From: Actinacidiphila paucisporea
GTDB taxonomy: Bacteria > Actinomycetota > Actinomycetes > Streptomycetales > Streptomycetaceae
DNA: 64,000 bases
Assembly: GCF_900142575.1 (NCBI RefSeq)
Contig: NZ_FRBI01000002.1
Coordinates: 310,001 to 374,000, forward strand
Reading direction: 5' to 3'
Below, in pieces: positions 2,055 to 60,040 of this stretch. A model generated the notes under the pieces. That model saw only the letters and a program-made list of their open reading frames with translations. It searched no databases and was not told the origin of the DNA. How positions within the stretch are numbered: position 1 is the first letter of the stretch; each line of letters begins with the position of its first letter. Position numbers and translations under genes: made by a program.

Positions 2055-3089
2055 ATGGCGAACAACATGTCGTTCATCGGCCGTGACATGGCTGTCGACC
2101 TCGGGACCGCCAACACGCTGGTGTACGTCAGGGGCCGAGGGATCGTCCTGAACGAGCCGTCCGTGGTGGCCGTGAACACCAACACCGGCGGCATCCTGGC
2201 GGTCGGCTCCGAGGCCAAGAAGATGATCGGCCGCACACCGGGCAACATCGTCGCGGTCCGGCCGCTCAAGGACGGCGTCATCGCCGACTTCGAGATCACC
2301 GAGCGCATGCTGCGGTATTTCATCCTCAAAGTGCACAAGCGCCGCTACCTCGCCCGCCCGCGGGTCGTCATCTGCGTGCCCTCCGGTATCACCGGCGTCG
2401 AGCGCCGTGCCGTGATCGACGCCGCCAACCAGGCCGGTGCGCGCACCGTGCACATCATCGAGGAGCCGATGGCCGCCGCGATCGGCGCCGGGCTCCCCGT
2501 GCACGAGGCCACCGGCAACATGGTGGTGGACATCGGCGGCGGCACCACCGAGGTCGCGGTCATCAGCCTCGGCGGCATCGTCACCGCCCAGTCCATCCGG
2601 GTGGCGGGCGACGAGCTGGACAACGCGATCATCCAGCACATCAAGAAGGAGTACAGCCTGCTGCTCGGCGAGCGCACCGCCGAGCAGATCAAGCTCACCG
2701 TCGGGTCGGCCTTCGCGACCAAGGACGACGAGGAGCACACCGAGATCCGCGGCCGCGACCTGGTCAGCGGGCTGCCCAAGACGGTCGTCATCTCGGCGGC
2801 CGAAGTGCGCAAGGCCATCGAGGAACCCGTCAACGCGATCGTCGACGCGGTGAAGACCACGCTGGACAAGTGCCCGCCCGAACTGTCGGGCGACATCATG
2901 GACCGCGGCATCGTCCTGGCCGGCGGCGGCGCACTGCTGCGCGGCCTGGACGAGCGGCTGCGGCACGAGACGGGCATGCCCATCCACATCGCCGAGACCC
3001 CGCTGGACTGCGTGGCGCTCGGCGCGGGCAAGTGCGTCGAGGAGTTCGAGGCACTGCAGCGCGTGCTCGACGCCGCTCCCCGCAGATGA
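2055..3089 (+). CDS. mreB: Rod-shape/spore-wall actin homologue MreB
   Basis: A 344-residue bacterial actin. The phosphate-1 motif [11 protein letters not shown] is at residues 15-25, the phosphate-2 motif [14 protein letters not shown] lies in the centre (around bases 2528-2570), and the adenosine motif [10 protein letters not shown] is near the C-terminus. MreB polymerises under the membrane and organises peptidoglycan synthases. In Streptomyces it acts mainly in aerial hyphae and spore walls rather than vegetative elongation. It is the first gene of the mreBCD-mrdA-rodA cluster. The ATG is preceded by GGGAAGG at a rather long distance (about 14 bases). Confidence 0.98.
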
Positions 3090-3227
3090 CGCGCGGTCCG
3101 CGGCCGGACTCGGCGAGCACCCTGGCGAGCCGGACCGCCCGCGTCATGCGAACCACAGCACAGTAGCCCCGACCGGCCGCGGCCCCACCGGCGGCGGGTC
3201 CGATGAGGAAGGCACGGACTGGCGCCC

Positions 3228-4220
3228 GTGAGGGACACAAAGGAGAGCCGGCTGCTGCTGGTGCTACTGGTGGTGGTCGCGTTCGCGCTGATCACCATGG
3301 ACATCAGGGGCGGTGAGAACTCACCGCTCGACCGGCCGCGGCAGGCCGCGCAATCCGTGTTCGGGCCGGTCGAGAACGCCGTGTCCGGTGTCGTCGACCC
3401 GGTGGGCAACGCGGTGGACGCGGTGCGCGACTCGGACGGCCGCAGCAGCACCATCAGCCGGCTGCAACGCGAGAACACCGCGCTCAAGCAGCAGCTCGGC
3501 AGCAAGGACATCACCCGCAACCGGGCGCAGGAACTGGACAAGCTGCTCAAGACCGCCGGCGCGGGACAGTACGCGATCAAGGGCGCGCAGGTCATCGCGA
3601 TAGGAGCGGCCCAGGGCTTCTCCTGGACGGTCACCATCGACGCCGGCAGCCGCGACGGGATCGCCCGCGACATGACCGTCATAAACGGTGACGGGCTGGT
3701 CGGCCGGGTCACCACCGTCGGCCCCTCGACGGCGACCGTGCTGCTGGCCAACGACCCGGACTTCACCGTCGGCACCCGGCTGGAGAACTCCATGGAGCTG
3801 GGCTTCGCCTCCGGCCAGGGCGACCGCCCGATGCGGGTCGAGCTGCTCAACGGCAAGGCCGCCGTGCACAGGGGCGACCGCCTGGTCACCTTCGGCTCCC
3901 AGGCCGGCAAGCCCTTCGTGCCCGGAGTGCCGGTCGGCAAGGTCACCGGCATCGACCCGTCCGGCGGCAACCTGACCAAGACCCTGCTGGTGCAGCCCTT
4001 CGTCGGCTTCAGCCGGCTGGACATCGTCGGTGTCGTCGTCGTCGGGCCGCGCACCGACCCCCGGGACAGCGTGCTGCCCGCGAAGCCGACCCCGTCGCCG
4101 AAGCCCAAGCCCAAGGCGCCGGCCTCGCCGACGGCCCCGGCCTCTCCCGGCAGCACCCAGACCGACGGCTCGCTGCCCCCGGCGAGCGCCACCTCCACGC
4201 CCACCGGCAGCAGGGGCTGA
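3228..4220 (+). CDS. mreC: Rod-shape-determining protein MreC
   Basis: A 330-residue bitopic membrane protein with a GTG start; a GAGGAAGG sequence lies about 16 bases upstream. One N-terminal membrane helix (about residues 8-25) is followed by a coiled-coil stretch (SRLQRENTALKQQLG) and the extracytoplasmic beta-barrel MreC core. The last 55 or so residues are a Pro/Ala/Lys/Ser-rich tail (KPTPSPKPKPKAPASP), a common actinomycete extension that probably reaches into the wall. MreC bridges MreB, MreD, PBP2 and RodA. A 138-base gap separates it from mreB; the mreD start follows three bases after its stop. Confidence 0.95.
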   Translation: MRDTKESRLLLVLLVVVAFALITMDIRGGENSPLDRPRQAAQSVFGPVENAVSGVVDPVGNAVDAVRDSDGRSSTISRLQRENTALKQQLGSKDITRNRAQELDKLLKTAGAGQYAIKGAQVIAIGAAQGFSWTVTIDAGSRDGIARDMTVINGDGLVGRVTTVGPSTATVLLANDPDFTVGTRLENSMELGFASGQGDRPMRVELLNGKAAVHRGDRLVTFGSQAGKPFVPGVPVGKVTGIDPSGGNLTKTLLVQPFVGFSRLDIVGVVVVGPRTDPRDSVLPAKPTPSPKPKPKAPASPTAPASPGSTQTDGSLPPASATSTPTGSRG

Positions 4221-4223
4221 CCC

Positions 4224-4871
4224 ATGCGTCTGAACCGAATCGTGCTCCCCGCCGTCCTGGTGGTCTTCGCGATGGTCGCCCAGGTCAGCGTGCTGGCCCG
4301 GCTCCACCTGCCGGGCGCGGTGCCCGACCTGCTGCTGCTGACCGTGCTCGGGCTCGCCATCAGCTACGGCCATGTCGCCGGCTGCCTGATCGGCTTCTTC
4401 GCCGGCCTGCTCGCCGACCTGGCACCGCCCGCCGACCACGCGGTGGGCCGCTACGCCCTGGTGCTGTGCGTCATCGGCTACGTGGCGGGCCTGTTCAAGC
4501 CGGAGAGCGGCCGGCTGCGTACCGCCGCGGGACCCATGCTGGTCGTCATCGGCGCCGCCATCGGCACCACCGTGCTCTACGCGGCCGTCGGCAGCCTGGT
4601 CGGCGACACCGCGGGCGCCCATGTGGGCCTGGCCAAGCTCGTCTTCACCGCCACGGTCTACGACCTGCTGCTCGCGCCCTTCGTGGTGCCGCTGGTGATG
4701 GCGATGGCCCGCCGCTTCGACCACGACCCGCTGTCCGAGGACGCCGTCGGCGGCTACGGCGGCAGCCGCGGCCGGATGAGAACCGGCGTCGCCCCGCAGC
4801 GCGGCGGCCTGTTCGGCCGCGCCGGGAAGATGGTCAAGGTCAACTCGATGGCCCGGGGAGTCAGGCGATGA
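4224..4871 (+). CDS. mreD: Rod-shape-determining membrane protein MreD
   Basis: A 215-residue protein with about five membrane segments between residues 5 and 160, matching MreD. The family is usually about 160-180 residues; this one carries a basic, Gly/Arg-rich cytoplasmic tail of around 50 residues that ends RGVRR. Its TGA overlaps the ATG of mrdA (ATGA), pointing to translational coupling. It works with MreC as the membrane scaffold of the wall-synthesis complex. Confidence 0.92.
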   Translation: MRLNRIVLPAVLVVFAMVAQVSVLARLHLPGAVPDLLLLTVLGLAISYGHVAGCLIGFFAGLLADLAPPADHAVGRYALVLCVIGYVAGLFKPESGRLRTAAGPMLVVIGAAIGTTVLYAAVGSLVGDTAGAHVGLAKLVFTATVYDLLLAPFVVPLVMAMARRFDHDPLSEDAVGGYGGSRGRMRTGVAPQRGGLFGRAGKMVKVNSMARGVRR

Positions 4872-17398: not shown

Positions 17399-20300
17399 AT
17401 GCCCGACCAGACCGATTCCCAGCCCACCGCAGGCGAGACCCCCGCGGAAGCCGCTCCGGCCCGCCGCCGCCGCGCCGCCTCCCGCCCCGCCGGCCCGCCG
17501 GCCGGCGCGACCGCGGACGGCCCTGCCGCCGCGGACGACGCGGCCGAGGCCGCCCCGGCCAGGCGCCGTACGCGCAAGACCGCGGCGAGCACGGAAGAGC
17601 CCGCCGCGACCACCGACTCCGGTGACGCCCCCGAGGCCGCCGCACCGCGCCGCCGCGCGACCCGTAAGACCGCCGCGAGCACGGAAGCGCCCGCCTCGGA
17701 GGCCGCGACCTCCGAGGACGCGGCACCGCGCCGCCGCGCGACCCGCAAGGCCACCGCGCCCGCCGCCGCCGACGAGACTCCGGCGCCCGACGAGGCCTCG
17801 GCGCCCGCCCGCCGTCGCGCCACCCGCAAGGCGACCTCCCCGGCCGGTTCCCCCGCCGTCACGGAGGAGCCCGCCGCCGAGGCCGAGGAGACAGCGGCGC
17901 CCGCCCGGCGCCGTGCCACCCGCAAGGCGACCGCGCCCGCCGCGGAGGAGCCGGCCGCCGAGGCCGCCGCACCCGCGAGTGACGAGGCCGCCGGGTCCGA
18001 GGCCGCTCCGGCCCGTCCGCGGCGTCGTGCCACTCGTAAGGCGACGGCGCCTGCCGGTTCGCCCGCCGTCACGGAGGAGCCCGCCGCCGAGGTCGTGGCG
18101 CCCGCCGCGGTGGAGCAGCCCGCCGAGGCCGCCGAGCCCGCGGTCTCCGACGCGGCTCCGGCCCGTGCCCGGCGCCGTGCGACCCGTAAGGCGACCTCCC
18201 CGGCCGGTTCGCCCGCCGTCGCGGAGGAGCCCGCTGCCGAGGTCGCGGCGCCCGCCGCGGCGGAGCAGCCCGCCGAGCCCGCGGTCTCCGGCGAGGCCCC
18301 CACCCGTGCCCGGCGTCGTGCCACCCGCAAGGCGACCGCCCCGGCCGGTTCCCCCGCTGTCGCGGAGGAGCCCGCCGCGCAAGCCCCCGCCGCGCAAGCC
18401 CCCGCCCGTACGCAGCCGGCCGCGGCCCAAGCCCCCGCCGAGGAGGCCGCCCCCGCAGGGCGGGCCCGGCGGACGCGGAAGAAGGCGGCGCCCGCCGCGA
18501 CCTTCTCCGCACCCGGCGGTGACGGCTCCCGGCGCCTGAAGCCCGGCGCGCTGGCCCCCCAGCACGAAGGCGGCGCGGACGCGGACACCGCCGCGCCCGC
18601 GACCGAGTACACCGGCAGGGCGCTGCGTGACGGCGACGGCTGGGCCGTCGAGGTCGACGACGCCTACGAGATCCGCGGCTACGGCGCCACGCCCGAGGAC
18701 GCCGCCGCGCAGGCGGTGACCGCGCTGGCCGACGCCTTCGGCATCCCGGCGGAGTCGCTGACGCTCGACGTGCGGACCGAGGCGGCGCCCGCGCGCGGCC
18801 GCCGCCGGGTCGTGCAGCCGCCGACCGCGGTCTTCCAGCCGCCGGTCTTCGGCGCCCCCACCGCCGCGCCCGCGGCGGCCGAGGAGGCGGAGCCCGAAGC
18901 CGAGCCCGAGCCCGAGGCCGAGGAGCACGAGGGTGGCGGCCCGCGCCGCCGCCGTCGCCGCAGGGGCGGCGCCGCGGTGGAGGCCGAGCAGCCCGAGGCC
19001 GCGCAGAGCACCGAGACCGCCGAGGTCGAGGCCGAGGAGGCCGAGGACGGCGAGGGCGAGGACGGCGAGGACCGCCCGTCGTCCCGGCGCCGCCGTCGTG
19101 GTGGCCGCCGCCGTCGTCGCGGCGACTCCGCCGAGCACGACGAGAACGGGTCCGACCAGGACGAGGACGAGGACGAGTCGCAGGACGACGAGGCCGAGTC
19201 CGCTGACGAGCACGAGGACGACCACCCGCAGGGCGGCGGGGCCGGCGGCAGCACCAGCAGCCGCCGTCGCCGCCGTCGCCGTCGCCGTGGCGGCGACTCC
19301 GGCGCGGATGACTCGCACGGCGGCGACGTCGACGACCCGGAGCGTACGGTCGTCAAGGTCCGCGAGCCGCGGCAGAGCCCCGAACCGCTCGGTACCGGCG
19401 CCGACCAGGTGCAGTCCATCAAGGGCTCCACCCGTCTGGAGGCCAAGAAGCAGCGCCGCCGGGAGGGCCGCGAGCAGGGCCGCCGCCGGGTGCCGATCAT
19501 CACCGAGGCCGAGTTCCTGGCCCGCCGCGAGGCGGTCGAGCGCGTCATGGTGGTGCGGCAGAACGGCGAGCGCACCCAGATCGGCGTGCTGGAGGACAAC
19601 GTCCTCGTCGAGCACTACGTCAACAAGGAGCAGGCCACCTCCTACGTCGGCAACGTCTACCTGGGCAAGGTCCAGAACGTGCTGCCGTCCATGGAGGCCG
19701 CTTTCGTCGACATCGGCAAGGGCCGCAACGCGGTGCTCTACGCCGGTGAGGTCAACTTCGAGGCGCTCGGCCTGTCCGGCGGCCCCCGCCGCATCGAGTC
19801 CGCGCTCAAGTCCGGCCAGCCGGTGCTGGTCCAGGTCACCAAGGACCCGATCGGCCACAAGGGCGCCCGCCTCACCAGCCAGGTCAGCCTGCCCGGCCGC
19901 TACCTGGTCTACGTGCCCGAGGGCTCGATGACCGGCATCAGCCGCAAGCTGCCCGACACCGAGCGCGCCCGGCTCAAGACGATCCTGAAGAAGATCGTCC
20001 CCGAGGACGCCGGCGTCATCGTCCGCACCGCCGCGGAGGGCGCCAGCGAGGACGAGCTGCGCCGCGACGTCGAGCGCCTCCAGGCGCAGTGGGACGACAT
20101 CCAGCGCAAGGCGAAGAACGGCGGCGGCTCCAACGCGCCGACGCTCCTCTACGGTGAGCCCGACATGACCGTCCGGGTCGTCAGGGACATCTTCAACGAG
20201 GACTTCTCGAAGGTCATCGTCAGCGGCGACGAGGCCTGGAGCACCATCCACGAGTACGTCACCCACGTCGCACCCGACCTGGCCGACCGGCTGTCCCGCT

Positions 20301-49317: not shown

Positions 49318-50568
49318 ATGAGCGGGCCTGGAGAGCCCCCTGAGGGCATGCCCGAGGGCGCCTCAGGAGGCGGTGAGGACGAATACCGATCCGTCGTCTT
49401 CGACGAATCGTTCGTGAGGGCTGCCCGGATCCAGGAGTATTCCGCGCGTGAGCGGCAGGACGACGCCGACCACCCGGTGCGGATCCGCCATGTGCTGCCC
49501 CGCGGCCTGGCCCGCCAGGCGGTGGCGCTGGTCCTGCTGATCGTGCTGGCCTTCGGCTTCGCGATCTACATGGGGGTGCGCCACCCCTACGAGGAGCGGG
49601 ACGCCGACTCCGGCGAGCAGCTGCGCGTCACGGTGATCCCCCTGGTGCCCGGCGGCACCGTGCCCGCCGTCTCCCCAAGGGTGCCCTTCGCCGGCACCGC
49701 CGCCGCCGGCTACCGCACCGGCCTCGCCGGGCTGAACGTGCCGACGTCGATGCACCCGATCGGCGACTACTCGCGCAGCGAGGTCAGCGCCGGCTACGAC
49801 ACGGCGGTGGACTTCATCAGCGACTCCGCCCTCGAAGCGGCGACCGTCACCGGCGGCGACATCCGCAACGTGCTGGAACTGCTCGACCCGAGCCAGGTCG
49901 ACCAGTTCAAGGACAGCCTCAGCGCTCCGGCCGCCGACGGCTCCCACGAGGTCACCGGCTGGCTGGTGCGCTTCGATCCCGACCCCGCGGTGCGGGTGGA
50001 GCTGGTCGGCGACGACCAGGGCATCCGGGTGAACGGCAGCTGGACGGCGTCGGAGACCGGTGACGACCACCTGGAACTCACCGCCGACCACACCTACGTC
50101 TACGCGATCCGTGGCTCGTCCGACCCGGACAGGACGGTGTCGCTGTTCACCGTACGGCGGCAGCTGCGCTTCCACTTCGACCACGAGGAGCTGCGGCGGC
50201 ACCACATCGAGGTGGTGCAGGCGGACGTCGCGGCCGGGCCGCTGGCCTGCTCGGCCGAGGTGGAGAGCTACTTCCGGCCGATACTGGCCGGGCACGCCGC
50301 GCCGGGCGCCGTCACCGGCGCCGACCCCTACGACCGCGCCCACCCGCCGGGCGCCGTCTGTGCGCCGCTGACCGGCGTCGAGGGCCCACCGCAGCCGACG
50401 GCCACGGCGACCACGCCCGCGGCCACGACCCCCGCGGTGACGGCGCCCGCGGCCACCGCGGCTACGGCAGCGGGCTCTCCGGCTGGTCCTCGTCCGGCGT
50501 CGCGTCGGGGTCCGCTGCTGACTCCGCGGGCCGTTCCGCGGTCGCCTGCGACGTCCCGGCTCCTGTGA
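49318..50568 (+). CDS. Membrane-anchored protein with extracellular domain and same N-terminal motif (long paralogue)
   Basis: A 416-residue protein. The N-terminal DEYRSVVFDESFVRAARI and EYSARERQ (about residues 21-46) match the upstream paralogue. One membrane helix follows (about 65-85), then an outer domain of about 250 residues without a recognised family, two cysteines in AGPLACSAEVES and GAVCAPLTG that could pair, and a Thr/Pro/Ala-rich tail. The last 107 bases overlap the 3' end of the convergent M48 gene. The ATG at 49318 lacks an obvious ribosome-binding site. It is the kind of protein reported in the Streptomyces mre-associated spore-wall network; the role is inferred. Confidence 0.8.
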   Translation: MSGPGEPPEGMPEGASGGGEDEYRSVVFDESFVRAARIQEYSARERQDDADHPVRIRHVLPRGLARQAVALVLLIVLAFGFAIYMGVRHPYEERDADSGEQLRVTVIPLVPGGTVPAVSPRVPFAGTAAAGYRTGLAGLNVPTSMHPIGDYSRSEVSAGYDTAVDFISDSALEAATVTGGDIRNVLELLDPSQVDQFKDSLSAPAADGSHEVTGWLVRFDPDPAVRVELVGDDQGIRVNGSWTASETGDDHLELTADHTYVYAIRGSSDPDRTVSLFTVRRQLRFHFDHEELRRHHIEVVQADVAAGPLACSAEVESYFRPILAGHAAPGAVTGADPYDRAHPPGAVCAPLTGVEGPPQPTATATTPAATTPAVTAPAATAATAAGSPAGPRPASRRGPLLTPRAVPRSPATSRLL

Positions 50569-51738: not shown

Positions 51739-51888
51739 ATGTCGCCCCTCGCAGTCTCCGCACTGACCACCCTCGCCGAGGACAACGGCGGCCACCACCC
51801 CAGCCTGAGCCCGTACCTGACCGGTTTCGGCGCGCTCGGCGCGCTGCTGATCCTGCTGTGGCTGGTCACCCGCTTCAACCGGGACTGA
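51739..51888 (+). CDS. 49-residue single-pass membrane peptide
   Basis: A small protein with an N-terminal polar segment ([15 protein letters not shown]) and one membrane helix at about residues 25-45 ([19 protein letters not shown]), ending RFNRD. An AAAGGG ribosome-binding site lies about 11 bases before the ATG. It starts 137 bases from the divergent M48 gene and ends 23 bases before nadD. No family is known to me. The clean helix, ribosome-binding site and tight spacing support a real gene. Confidence 0.65.
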
Positions 51889-51911
51889 CCGGCACCGTGC
51901 CCGACAGCGCC

Positions 51912-52514
51912 ATGTCCGACAGCAAGCACCGCATCGGTGTGATGGGCGGGACGTTCGACCCCATCCACCACGGGCACCTGGTGGCGGCGAGCGAGGTGGC
52001 GAGCCTCTTCCACCTCGACGAGGTGGTCTTCGTGCCGACCGGGCAGCCCTGGCAGAAGAGCGACCGGCAGGTGTCAGCGGCCGAGGACCGGTATCTGATG
52101 ACGGTGATCGCCACCGCGTCGAATCCGACCTTCTCGGTCAGCCGCAGCGACATCGACCGCGCCGGCACCACGTACACCATCGACACCCTGCGCGACCTGC
52201 GGGCCGAGCACCCGGCAGCCGAGCTGTTCTTCATCACCGGCGCGGACGCGCTGTCGCAGATCTTCTCGTGGCGCAATGCCGAGGAGCTGTTCTCGCTCGC
52301 ACATTTCATCGGCGTCACACGTCCTGGGCATACTCTGTCGGACCCGGGCTTCCCCGAGGGCGGAGTATCGCTCGTGGAGGTCCCGGCACTGGCGATCTCC
52401 TCGACGGACTGCCGCCAGCGGGTGGCCAAGGGGGATCCGGTCTGGTACTTGGTTCCGGACGGGGTGGTGCGCTACATCGACAAGCGCGCGCTCTACCGGG
52501 ACGCTTCCGGGTAG
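51912..52514 (+). CDS. nadD: Nicotinate-nucleotide adenylyltransferase
   Basis: A 200-residue enzyme of the nucleotidyltransferase family that adenylates nicotinate mononucleotide in NAD synthesis. [15 protein letters not shown] contains the HxGH-type motif; ISSTDCRQR near the end is the second signature. ATG 51912 was chosen; GTG 51897 is in frame and possible. The nadD ... rsfS arrangement is a widely conserved gene neighbourhood, interrupted here by the LCP/LytR gene. Confidence 0.95.
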
Positions 52515-52551: not shown

Positions 52552-54399
52552 GTGAACGACGCAAACCCCCGTTGGCAATATGCCGAGGGCGGACCCGACG
52601 ACGAGAGGGACCCCTACCCGCAGGACCCCTACTACCAGCAGCAGTCCTACGGTTACGACCAGTACGGCAACCCCGTGCAGCAGCAGGCGCCGCCGGCACC
52701 CCAGGTGCCGCAGCAGCCCGGCTACCAGGACCCGTACCAGACCTACGGCGGCGGCCAGGGCCAGCAGCAGGGCTGGATCCCGCAGCAGCCCCAGCCGCCG
52801 TACTACGAGCAGCAGCCCCCGCAGCAGCAGCCGCAGGCGTACGACACGGGCCAGCAGCCGGTCTACGACACCGGGCAGCACGCCGTCTACGACACGGGCC
52901 AGCACGCGGTGTACGGGACCGGGCAGATGCCGGTGTACGAGACCGGGCAGCAGCCCGCTTACGACGCGGGCCAGCACGCGGTGTACGAGACCGGCCAGCA
53001 GCCCGCTTACGACACAGGTCAGCAGCCGGTGTACGACACCGGCCAGCACGCGGTGTACGACACCGGCCGGCAGCCTGCCCCGACGGAGGCCGAACCCGCC
53101 GCGGCGTCCCCGGCCGGTGGGGCGCCCAGAGCCGGCTACCAGACCGAGATGTTCGCGTTCGTCGACGAGGAGTCCGAGCAGTCCGAGGAGGTCATCGACT
53201 GGCTCAAGTTCTCCGAGTCGCGTACCGAGCGCCGCGAGGAGGCCAAGCGGCGCGGGCGCAACCGCAAGGTCGGCCTGGTCGTGGTGCTGGTGCTGGCGCT
53301 GCTCGGCGCCACCGGCTATCTGTGGCAGGCGGGCAAACTGCCCGGGGTCGGCAAGTCCAAGGCGGCGCAGGCCGCGGCCGGCGGCCCGCAGAAGCGCGAC
53401 GTCATCGTCGTGCACCTGATCCCGGTGGACGGCGGCCCCAGCGACACCGCGCTGCTGGTGGACAACAGCACGAAGGGCCGCGGCACCACCGTGCTGCTGC
53501 CGAACGCCCTGTCGGTGGCCTCGGACGACGGCACCGCGGCTTCCCTGGACAAGTCCGTCGGGGACGGCATCGGGCCGACCAGGGACGCGCTGAACACCCT
53601 GCTCGGCGCCGACATCAAGGGCAGCTGGCGGCTGGACAGCCCGTATCTGGAGCTGCTGGTCGACGCGCTCGGCGACGTCTACGTCGACACCGACACCGCG
53701 GTGAAGGGCACCGGCAAGGACAGCGGCAGGACGCTGGTCCAGAAGGGCGGGCAGCAGGAGCTGACCGGCCAGGCGGCCGTCGCGTACGCCACCTACCGGG
53801 CCGCCGGCGAACCGCAGACCAAGCAGCTCAGCCGCTTCGGGCAGGTCATGCAGGCGGTGCTCAAGAAGATGCCGAGCGACGCCGCGGGCGCCACCAGGAC
53901 CGTGCAGTCGCTCAGCCAGATCCTCGACCCGTCGCTCACCGACAAGCAGCTCGGCGCGTCGCTCGCGCAGCTCGCCGACCTGGCGAAGACCGGTGCCTAC
54001 AGCACCACGCTGCTGCCGGTGCAGAAGGACGGCACGCTCAGCCAGGACACCGACTCGGTCGTCAAGGACGTGCTCGGCGGCACGGTCAAGCAGTCCGCGG
54101 GCACCACCCAGGCGCGGGTCCTGATCAGCGACGCGACGGGCAATGCGAAGGCCGCCCCGATGGCGCAGGCCGCGATCGTCAACGGCGGCACGTACACCTA
54201 CGTCTCCGGCGGCAAGGGCGGCTCGGTCAAGTCCGCCTCCGAGGTGCTCTACACCGACGCGGCCCGGCTCGCCGCCGCCAAGGATGTGGCCGCCACGCTG
54301 GGGCTGCCGCCGACCGCGGTCAAGAAGGGCAAGGTGCCGGCCAACGCCGACATCGCGGTGACGCTCGGCAAGGACTACAAGCTGCCGCCGACGCAGTGA
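52552..54399 (+). CDS. LCP/LytR-type membrane protein with octapeptide-repeat tail
   Basis: About 615 residues, GTG 52552 with AGGGG seven bases upstream. A cytoplasmic N-terminus of about 235 residues is Gln/Pro/Tyr-rich and includes ten copies of an octapeptide [VA]YDTGQ[QH][PA]. A single membrane helix (about 243-262) precedes an LCP-like outer domain (about 280-475) and a LytR_C domain (about 515-610). Canonical LCP enzymes attach wall teichoic acid to peptidoglycan. Here SDTALLVD is kept but the usual S-x-PRD motif reads LLPNAL and the Y-A-R-x-R segment is altered, so ligase activity is doubtful. Confidence 0.82.
   Translation: MNDANPRWQYAEGGPDDERDPYPQDPYYQQQSYGYDQYGNPVQQQAPPAPQVPQQPGYQDPYQTYGGGQGQQQGWIPQQPQPPYYEQQPPQQQPQAYDTGQQPVYDTGQHAVYDTGQHAVYGTGQMPVYETGQQPAYDAGQHAVYETGQQPAYDTGQQPVYDTGQHAVYDTGRQPAPTEAEPAAASPAGGAPRAGYQTEMFAFVDEESEQSEEVIDWLKFSESRTERREEAKRRGRNRKVGLVVVLVLALLGATGYLWQAGKLPGVGKSKAAQAAAGGPQKRDVIVVHLIPVDGGPSDTALLVDNSTKGRGTTVLLPNALSVASDDGTAASLDKSVGDGIGPTRDALNTLLGADIKGSWRLDSPYLELLVDALGDVYVDTDTAVKGTGKDSGRTLVQKGGQQELTGQAAVAYATYRAAGEPQTKQLSRFGQVMQAVLKKMPSDAAGATRTVQSLSQILDPSLTDKQLGASLAQLADLAKTGAYSTTLLPVQKDGTLSQDTDSVVKDVLGGTVKQSAGTTQARVLISDATGNAKAAPMAQAAIVNGGTYTYVSGGKGGSVKSASEVLYTDAARLAAAKDVAATLGLPPTAVKKGKVPANADIAVTLGKDYKLPPTQ
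52837..53076 (+). repeat. Ten tandem 24-base units coding octapeptide repeats
   Basis: Units of YDTGQ-type octapeptides (VYDTGQHA, AYDTGQQP and variants) run without gaps inside the LCP/LytR gene. The unit length is a multiple of three, so copy-number change would keep the frame. Confidence 0.9.
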
Positions 54400-54490: not shown

Positions 54491-54928
54491 GTGACCGCCA
54501 CTGACCGTTCCATCGAGCTGACCCGCGCCGCCGCACAGGCCGCCGCCGACAAGCTCGCGCACGACATCATCGCTTACGACGTCAGCGACGTGCTGTCCAT
54601 CACCGACGTCTTCCTCGTCGCGTCCGCGCCGAACGACCGGCAGGTCAAGGCTATCGTTGACGCCATCGAGGAGACGCTGCTCAAGGAGCTGGACGTCAAG
54701 CCGGTCCGCCGCGAGGGCGAGCGGGACGGCCGCTGGGTCCTGCTCGACTACATCGACATCGTCGTGCACGTCCAGCACTCCGAGGAGCGGGTCTTCTACG
54801 CTCTGGAGCGGCTGTGGAAGGACTGCCCCGAGATCGCGCTGCCCGACGACGCGGTCGCCACCCGGGGCAAGGGCAAGGAGCACGCCGCGGCCACCGCCGC
54901 CGCGGACGAGGACGGGAGCCTCAGCTGA
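54491..54928 (+). CDS. rsfS: Ribosome silencing factor RsfS (Iojap family)
   Basis: A 145-residue protein, GTG start with GGAAAG about 9 bases upstream. The fold is indicated by ITDVFLVASAPNDRQVKAIVDAIEE (parts), REGERDGRWVLLDYIDIVVHV and FYALERLWKDCPEI, the RsfS core. It binds L14 and blocks joining of the ribosomal subunits when nutrients are short. The last 20 residues are Ala-rich. Its stop overlaps the predicted CTG start of the next gene. Confidence 0.95.
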   Translation: MTATDRSIELTRAAAQAAADKLAHDIIAYDVSDVLSITDVFLVASAPNDRQVKAIVDAIEETLLKELDVKPVRREGERDGRWVLLDYIDIVVHVQHSEERVFYALERLWKDCPEIALPDDAVATRGKGKEHAAATAAADEDGSLS

Positions 54929-59677: not shown

Positions 59678-60040
59678 AGCGGTCTCCACCCCTCTCGTCC
59701 ACTCGGCCGCAGCCACCGTAACCCGCGAAGTCGACCCTAATTGTTGACACTTCATGAATATCGCCGCGGCCGGCACCCGTGCTTGCGGCTTGCGGCCGGC
59801 ACCCGTGCTTGCGGCTTGCGGCCGGCACCCGTGCTTGCGGCCTGCGGCCGGCACCCGTGCTTGCGGCCTGCGGCCGGCACCCGTGCTTGCGGCCTGCGGC
59901 CGGCACCCGTGCCTGCGGCCGCTGCCCGCACCCGTGCCGCGTCCACTGCGGACAGGCGCTGCCCCGGCTAACGATTTGCGGCCCATGCCCCTCCGGCGTG
60001 TAAAGTAACCCCAGGTCGCCGGGCATACCGGCACCGTTGC
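59678..60040. other. Gap between OYE start and second tRNA-Ala
   Basis: A 363-base interval without a gene. It contains the 26-bp tandem repeats (59768-59945), a TTGCGG/TAAAGT pair about 19 bases apart near 59969-60006 that may be the tRNA promoter, and the leader of the OYE gene. Confidence 0.7.
59768..59945. repeat. 26-bp tandem repeat, about seven copies
   Basis: Units begin at 59771, 59797, 59823, 59849, 59875, 59901 and a degraded 59927, each about CGGCACCCGTGCTTGCGGCC. The period of 26 is not a multiple of three and the copies differ only at a few bases (CTT or CCT), so this is a young non-coding minisatellite. Each unit contains GCAC-CC-GTGC, a tiny inverted repeat. Confidence 0.93.

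Follow-up and report, generated by a model that had tools for sequence, protein, structure and literature searches.

Can a protein that keeps the LCP fold but has lost nearly all of its catalytic residues still attach polymers to the cell wall, or does it serve the wall in another way? The question is raised by one gene in a 64,000-nucleotide stretch of Actinacidiphila paucisporea (the window, meaning the whole stretch analysed), which is the local ortholog of PdtA (SCO2578 in S. coelicolor, Vnz_11555 in S. venezuelae). PdtA is cited as the enzyme attaching one Streptomyces wall polymer, and published descriptions of SCO2578 call it a transferase (polydiglycosylphosphate transferase). This assignment apparently goes back to the phenotype of a mutant; should the catalytic set be absent from all sampled relatives, it calls for a direct assay.

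The pdtA locus and the domains of its product

The GTG start of the gene (Table 1) is preceded by AAGGGG, and the same start is common to relatives beginning VNDANP; two longer ORFs, at 52276 (forward strand) and 52315 (reverse strand), were set aside as mechanical listings. The direct neighbors are nadD and rsfS, so the placement by mre-type genes given in the first-pass annotation does not hold: mreB, mreC, and mreD lie at 2055-4868 of the window, about 48 kb away. Among 80 named loci, rsfS is found in all 80 and nadD in 76, and both genes flank pdtA in 29 out of 29 plus 17 out of 20 further loci. One locus (L128) is the sole named one in which rsfS is present and nadD finds no match, even with 3.2 kb of sequence lying upstream; its ORF is unusually long, possibly reflecting an assembly or frame problem. 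The position next to nadD and rsfS places the window gene in the PdtA group (for S. coelicolor, the link of pdtA to nadD is taken from PMC7831098, and Vnz_11555 is named as the SCO2578 ortholog in PMC11481543). Among named relatives it groups with the Actinacidiphila part of Streptomycetaceae, the closest named locus being that of A. bryophytorum (90% identity in the domain region).

Table 1. Features of the pdtA locus, in window coordinates (counts refer to the 80 named orthologs).
Feature	Position	Strand	Basis or remark
nadD, upstream neighbor	51858..52514	+	Pfam search and locus comparison
pdtA ortholog, 615 aa, GTG start	52552..54399	+	ORF, stop codon 54397-54399
Octapeptide array of ten YDTGQxxx units on the cytoplasmic side (residues 97-176)	52840..53079	+	ten in-frame units of exactly 24 bp
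Conserved juxtamembrane cytoplasmic motif TE.FaFvdEesEqsEEVIDWLKFsESRtERReEakRR, residues 194-237	53131..53262	+	alignment
Single predicted transmembrane helix, residues about 240-262	53269..53337	+	sequence; basic residues N-terminal of helix
LCP domain, residues about 281-494	53392..54033	+	Pfam, profile, model, structure comparison
D298, SDT aspartate, retained	53443..53445	+	alignment; S in 67/80, D in 6/80
N318 replacing PRD arginine (motif PNA)	53503..53505	+	alignment
W359-R360	53626..53631	+	invariant, 80/80
T414-Y415-R416 replacing RxR motif	53791..53799	+	alignment
Q425 replacing DxxR arginine; R428 one helical turn later	53824..53835	+	R428 in 80/80
LytR_C domain, residues 520-609	54109..54378	+	Pfam and structure comparison
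rsfS, downstream neighbor	54491..54928	+	Pfam search and locus comparison

The window protein matches LytR_cpsA_psr (PF03816) at 33.6 bits, over the cut-off, as a partial match (model positions 48-148 of 150), and LytR_C (PF13399) at 29.5 bits (cut-off 22.2); with the NCBIfam LCP model it scores 29.4, under that model's cut-off of 62.3. A PDB profile search with 66 rows gave TagV as the best match (E 1.3e-6), and the same search with the single protein sequence was of no use, yielding a lone chance match (E 0.54). The AlphaFold2 model built from the 66-row alignment has a mean pLDDT of 89.6 and a pTM of 0.77. Foldseek with this model ranked solved LCP proteins first (33 matches at E <= 0.001), and VIA-align aligned it to TagT with LIIa-WTA at Z 20.8 (2.8 A, 216 residues), structural ranks 1-26 being TagT, Cps2A, and other LytR/LCP entries (Z 14.8-20.8). 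The C-terminal part aligns with the Rv2700 ortholog (6q10; Z 8.3, 2.8 A over 91 residues) and with the Rv0431 C-terminal domain (2m5y; Z 7.8, 3.3 A over 86). By sequence profile and fold the protein belongs to the LCP fold family, and by its C-terminal domain to the LytR_C family; in the model, the LCP fold is intact.

Elsewhere in the window we also observed a 416-aa ORF near the pdtA locus (49318-50568) that has a single hydrophobic stretch and matches no Pfam family; imperfect long repeats of 141-150 bp (17950-18408) within the N-terminal part of an RNase E/G ORF; and a near-perfect tandem array (59766-59937; 26 bp x 6.7 copies, 96% matches), whose period is not divisible by three and which has a tRNA-like sequence just downstream (around 60045, by eye). 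The exact 23-base core of this array occurs three times in the genome, all at this site.

Active-site residues in the window protein and its relatives

A competent ligase would carry the PRD, RxR, and DxxR arginines and two metal-binding aspartates; from this set, the window protein retains D298 and R416 alone. The first-pass annotation had read PRD as PNA and the YARxR region as changed, and the alignment bears out both readings, with N318 at the PRD arginine and YATYR in the second region (i.e., T414, with R416 retained). Among the arginine ligands, R416 thus remains, and the PRD, first RxR, and DxxR arginines are gone. In addition, the Asp/Arg stretch of the metal (Mg) loop is deleted, and the DxxR aspartate, the DxxR arginine and the next glutamine correspond to Q422, Q425, and F429. 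Of the seven Cps2A-type ligands, five or more are replaced, and by alignment all but D298 (residue names of Cps2A and TagT follow PMC7831098; from motif spacing, Cps2A R362 would be the first RxR arginine). Q425, not R428, was matched to the DxxR arginine by sequence alignments rather than by superposed coordinates; if R428 is that arginine shifted by one turn, one further ligand would be retained.

We take R149 of A. oris LcpA to be the PRD arginine (TagT R118), in line with what the paper on this enzyme says of a deprotonating arginine. According to that paper (PMC6381275), R149A and R266A abolish activity and R128A does not, R266 being the equivalent of TagT R227. The counterparts of the two essential arginines in the window protein are N318 and Q425, and these replacements are clade-wide, in agreement with the earlier proposal that the protein is unlikely to ligate polymers like a standard LCP.

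In the 80 named orthologs, position 318 is N in 79 and G in one, position 414 is T in 77, and position 425 is Q in 78, which rules out a recent loss of the arginines or a sequencing error; position 416 is R in 64, and D362 and E420 are invariant (80/80). Judged from these alignments, the replacements are fixed at defined residues within Streptomycetaceae.

A wider set of 45 rows contained 17 LCPs from nadD-rsfS loci of several families (the window protein, five of the 80 named loci, six of 20 loci from another search, and five of 24 matches from a further search) and 28 standard LCPs from six genomes, which include the other 19 of those 24 matches; two degenerate LCPs of the own genome (L010 and L012, L011 being the window gene) were left out of the standard rows. 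The two groups split at 100/100. Arginine is found at positions 318 and 414 in none of the 17 nadD-rsfS rows, at 416 in five and at 425 in two, and aspartate at 298 in two, whereas all 28 standard rows have each of these residues. Position 318 is occupied by N in seven of the 17 rows, S in four, G and P in two each, and D and T in one each; R428 is present in all 17 and R360 in nine. When columns conserved in 25 or more of the 28 standard rows were scored, regardless of function, the nadD-rsfS rows had lost the polar site residues and kept P317, G374, and G406 in 17 out of 17, and 37 of the 51 hydrophobic columns stayed hydrophobic in at least 15 of the 17. The two LCP groups are joined by a long branch (1.67 + 0.77). 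Long-branch attraction may play a part in the grouping of the nadD-rsfS LCPs; the shared locus supports this grouping independently of the tree. On the sequence evidence, the loss is old and common to the whole nadD-rsfS branch in several families.

A profile of the window protein and 65 of the 80 named loci (A2) matched four of 119 phylum genomes at E <= 1e-10, including the own genome, a lower bound since A2 contains Streptomycetaceae only; at this threshold, the Streptomycetaceae-only profile had no match outside the class in the 119 genomes. A search with the single protein gave matches in five of nine class genomes outside the order. In Firmicutes, a conserved obg-...-nadD-yqeK-lytR-rsfS cluster is described (PMC7549365), and the nadD-rsfS locus may predate the loss.

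The own genome has 12 PF03816 matches, among which the pdtA ortholog is the second weakest and one of three partial ones; in each of five other genomes, the nadD-rsfS LCP is the weakest match. Standard LCPs are present in the same genomes as the nadD-rsfS LCP, so a partner ligase is available. As for the degenerate LCPs set apart above, L012 (G000:C41:281331-281639) has neither the PRD arginine nor the RxR region, and L010 (G000:C23:133160-133429) keeps PRD and misses the RxR stretch.

Values of dN/dS, computed for six of 13 pairs, were 0.28-0.45 in the LCP part and 0.25-0.71 in the LytR_C part; in the same pairs they were 0.01-0.15 in nadD and 0.09-0.24 in rsfS. By these ratios, PdtA is under selection, less strict than that on nadD and rsfS. 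Pseudogene decay is ruled out by the open frame and by dN/dS below 1 in the six pairs.

Octapeptide repeats and the juxtamembrane motif

Ten octapeptide repeats had been claimed, as a cytoplasmic tail; the ten in-frame units and the cytoplasmic side stand, and the tail does not, since the repeats are at the N-terminal end. Tandem Repeats Finder reported the array with a period of 24 (10.3 copies) and with a period of 72 (score 293). Synonymous differences among the ten units exceed replacement differences (pS 0.47, pN 0.16), which indicates that the repeat frame is the coding one. The array varies in length: strict YDTGQ-like units number 2-12 in 24 of 32 same-genus loci and 0 in the other eight (10 in the window), and they number 6-11 in 13 of the 80 named loci and 0-3 in the other 67, so that they are nearly absent beyond related species (the two sets overlap, and three of the 67 loci end at a contig end). 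The same-genus loci are from 32 of 34 other genomes, the two left out each having one in-frame stop in the match. No clear YDTGQ-like repeat was found elsewhere in the genome (six weak matches, best E 0.19). The repeats are probably a flexible spacer and, by this distribution, a variable add-on of one species group, a side feature of the protein.

The segment before the membrane (TE.FsF.ee...SEdVIDWLKF.EsRtERReE) is near-universal in Streptomycetaceae and recognizable in part of the order-level relatives, and a second copy of the motif was not found in the own genome at E <= 10. The mean majority fraction is 0.80 in the juxtamembrane motif, 0.74 in LCP, 0.67 in LytR_C, and 0.34 in the repeats (15 of the 80 rows lack a clear start or are cut by a contig end). 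If some cytoplasmic partner binds PdtA, this motif would be a better candidate than the repeats.

Possible roles of PdtA and comparison with known systems

According to PMC7831098, S. coelicolor PdtA is TagV-like, one of 11 LCPs, and was found by screening for proteins that partner with the spore-wall complex; without it, spore-wall glycopolymer is down by 48%, PDP alone is affected, and none of the ten other LCPs substitutes. It is reported as a member of a Mre-containing spore-wall complex (PMC7831098 and PMC11481543), with which the first-pass suggestion of a wall-complex component is in keeping. A part of PdtA in polydiglycosylphosphate (PDP) content and sporulation is on record for S. coelicolor alone. 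In S. venezuelae, deletion of vnz_11555 gave no developmental phenotype according to PMC11481543, so the role of PdtA may be species-dependent; its authors remark, in one sentence, that the activity of Vnz_11555 was possibly lost. In the parts of the open-access literature covered by our search, this possibility was found stated only there, for Vnz_11555. SCO2578 is not named in the main text of a phosphorylation paper and a glycoproteome paper, nor is LytR or LCP in a phosphoproteome paper.

Our best explanation, to which we give an even chance, is that PdtA is a non-catalytic LCP/LytR_C wall-assembly adaptor, most likely no ligase itself; with nearly all catalytic residues lost, a role in organizing the wall rather than in catalysis is possible. 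PdtA would be a membrane-anchored LCP-LytR_C protein that retains the LCP fold and has lost the pyrophosphate- and metal-binding residues, and it is from these replacements that we infer the absence of catalysis. The juxtamembrane motif would be the docking site in the cytoplasm, with the Mre/PBP spore-wall complex as its probable target, and the LytR_C domain would contact active LCP ligases, by analogy with VirR, which has LytR_C but no catalytic domain and uses LytR_C to bind LCP ligases (in split-GFP, truncated LCPs alone gave a signal; PMC11832169). The altered LCP pocket may hold a lipid-linked glycopolymer uncleaved, or may be purely structural. More tentatively, the nadD-rsfS LCP of Actinomycetes could as a whole be an old pseudoenzyme branch, which transfers nothing itself and recruits a different LCP ligase, together with the lipid-linked polymer, to a Mre-type wall machine via the VIDWLKF motif and LytR_C. 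If true, a conserved LCP pseudoenzyme would explain why ten paralogs cannot replace one LCP.

What counts against the adaptor is that the glycopolymer drop, the PDP-only effect, and the lack of a substitute LCP are as for a dedicated enzyme (PMC7831098), that R416 (64/80), R428, R360, and R344 could form an alternative phosphate site, and that deletion in S. venezuelae left development unchanged (PMC11481543). PdtA might accordingly be named correctly, as a divergent active ligase that transfers PDP with its phosphate-binding site moved to R428, R416, and R360, which we consider rather unlikely: the invariance of R428 and R360 in the 80 named orthologs, the presence of R428 in all 17 wider rows, the fixation of the replaced positions within Streptomycetaceae without drift, and the fall of PDP in the S. 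coelicolor mutant speak for it, but the Cps2A-type ligands, including the counterparts of both essential A. oris LcpA arginines, are replaced together, the Mg loop is deleted, D298 is kept in just six of 80, R416 is variable, and R360 is found in only nine of the 17 rows. Weighing the S. coelicolor phenotype and complex screen, the S. venezuelae deletion with its authors' suggestion of lost activity, and the VirR model, we favor the adaptor over such a re-wired enzyme.

The LCP domain could also be a relic, merely a scaffold for LytR_C without any ligand-related role, as the variation of position 318 across families and the dN/dS values above those of nadD and rsfS would allow; the retained fold and hydrophobic columns, the invariance of W359, R360, D362, E420, and R428 in the 80 orthologs, and the S. 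coelicolor phenotype (PMC7831098) make this improbable. The least probable reading, by a wide measure doubtful, is that of the first-pass annotation, in which the YDTGQ repeats bind partners: the array is on the cytoplasmic side and better kept as protein than as DNA, but it is clade-specific and variable in copy number, whereas the juxtamembrane motif is general.

Earlier publications already describe the gene family and its part in the wall and voice the suspicion that activity was lost; new here are the apparent age of the loss and its extent over the branch in several families, the fixed replacements in Streptomycetaceae, and the minor place of the repeats beside a conserved juxtamembrane motif. 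The window protein is like PdtA (SCO2578) and Vnz_11555 in its locus next to nadD, its LCP-LytR_C architecture, and the reported Mre-type complex context, and like Vnz_11555 in the loss of catalytic residues suggested in PMC11481543; it differs in its ten octapeptide repeats, SCO2578 being known here by description. It shares the fold of TagT/TagU/TagV and Cps2A-type ligases (closest to TagT by structure and to TagV by sequence); unlike in these, the catalytic arginines, the metal-binding loop, and the supporting D and Q are replaced. With VirR (Rv0431) and Cei (Rv2700) it has in common the LytR_C fold and, as proposed, the part of a non-catalytic scaffold for LCP ligases; unlike these proteins, which are without a catalytic LCP domain, PdtA has kept its LCP domain in folded form and carries a conserved motif on the cytoplasmic side. 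CglA (Vnz_13690) is likewise an LCP-LytR_C protein, and its cytoplasmic part is needed (PMC11481543); unlike the window protein, CglA retains the active-site residues and sits in another locus.
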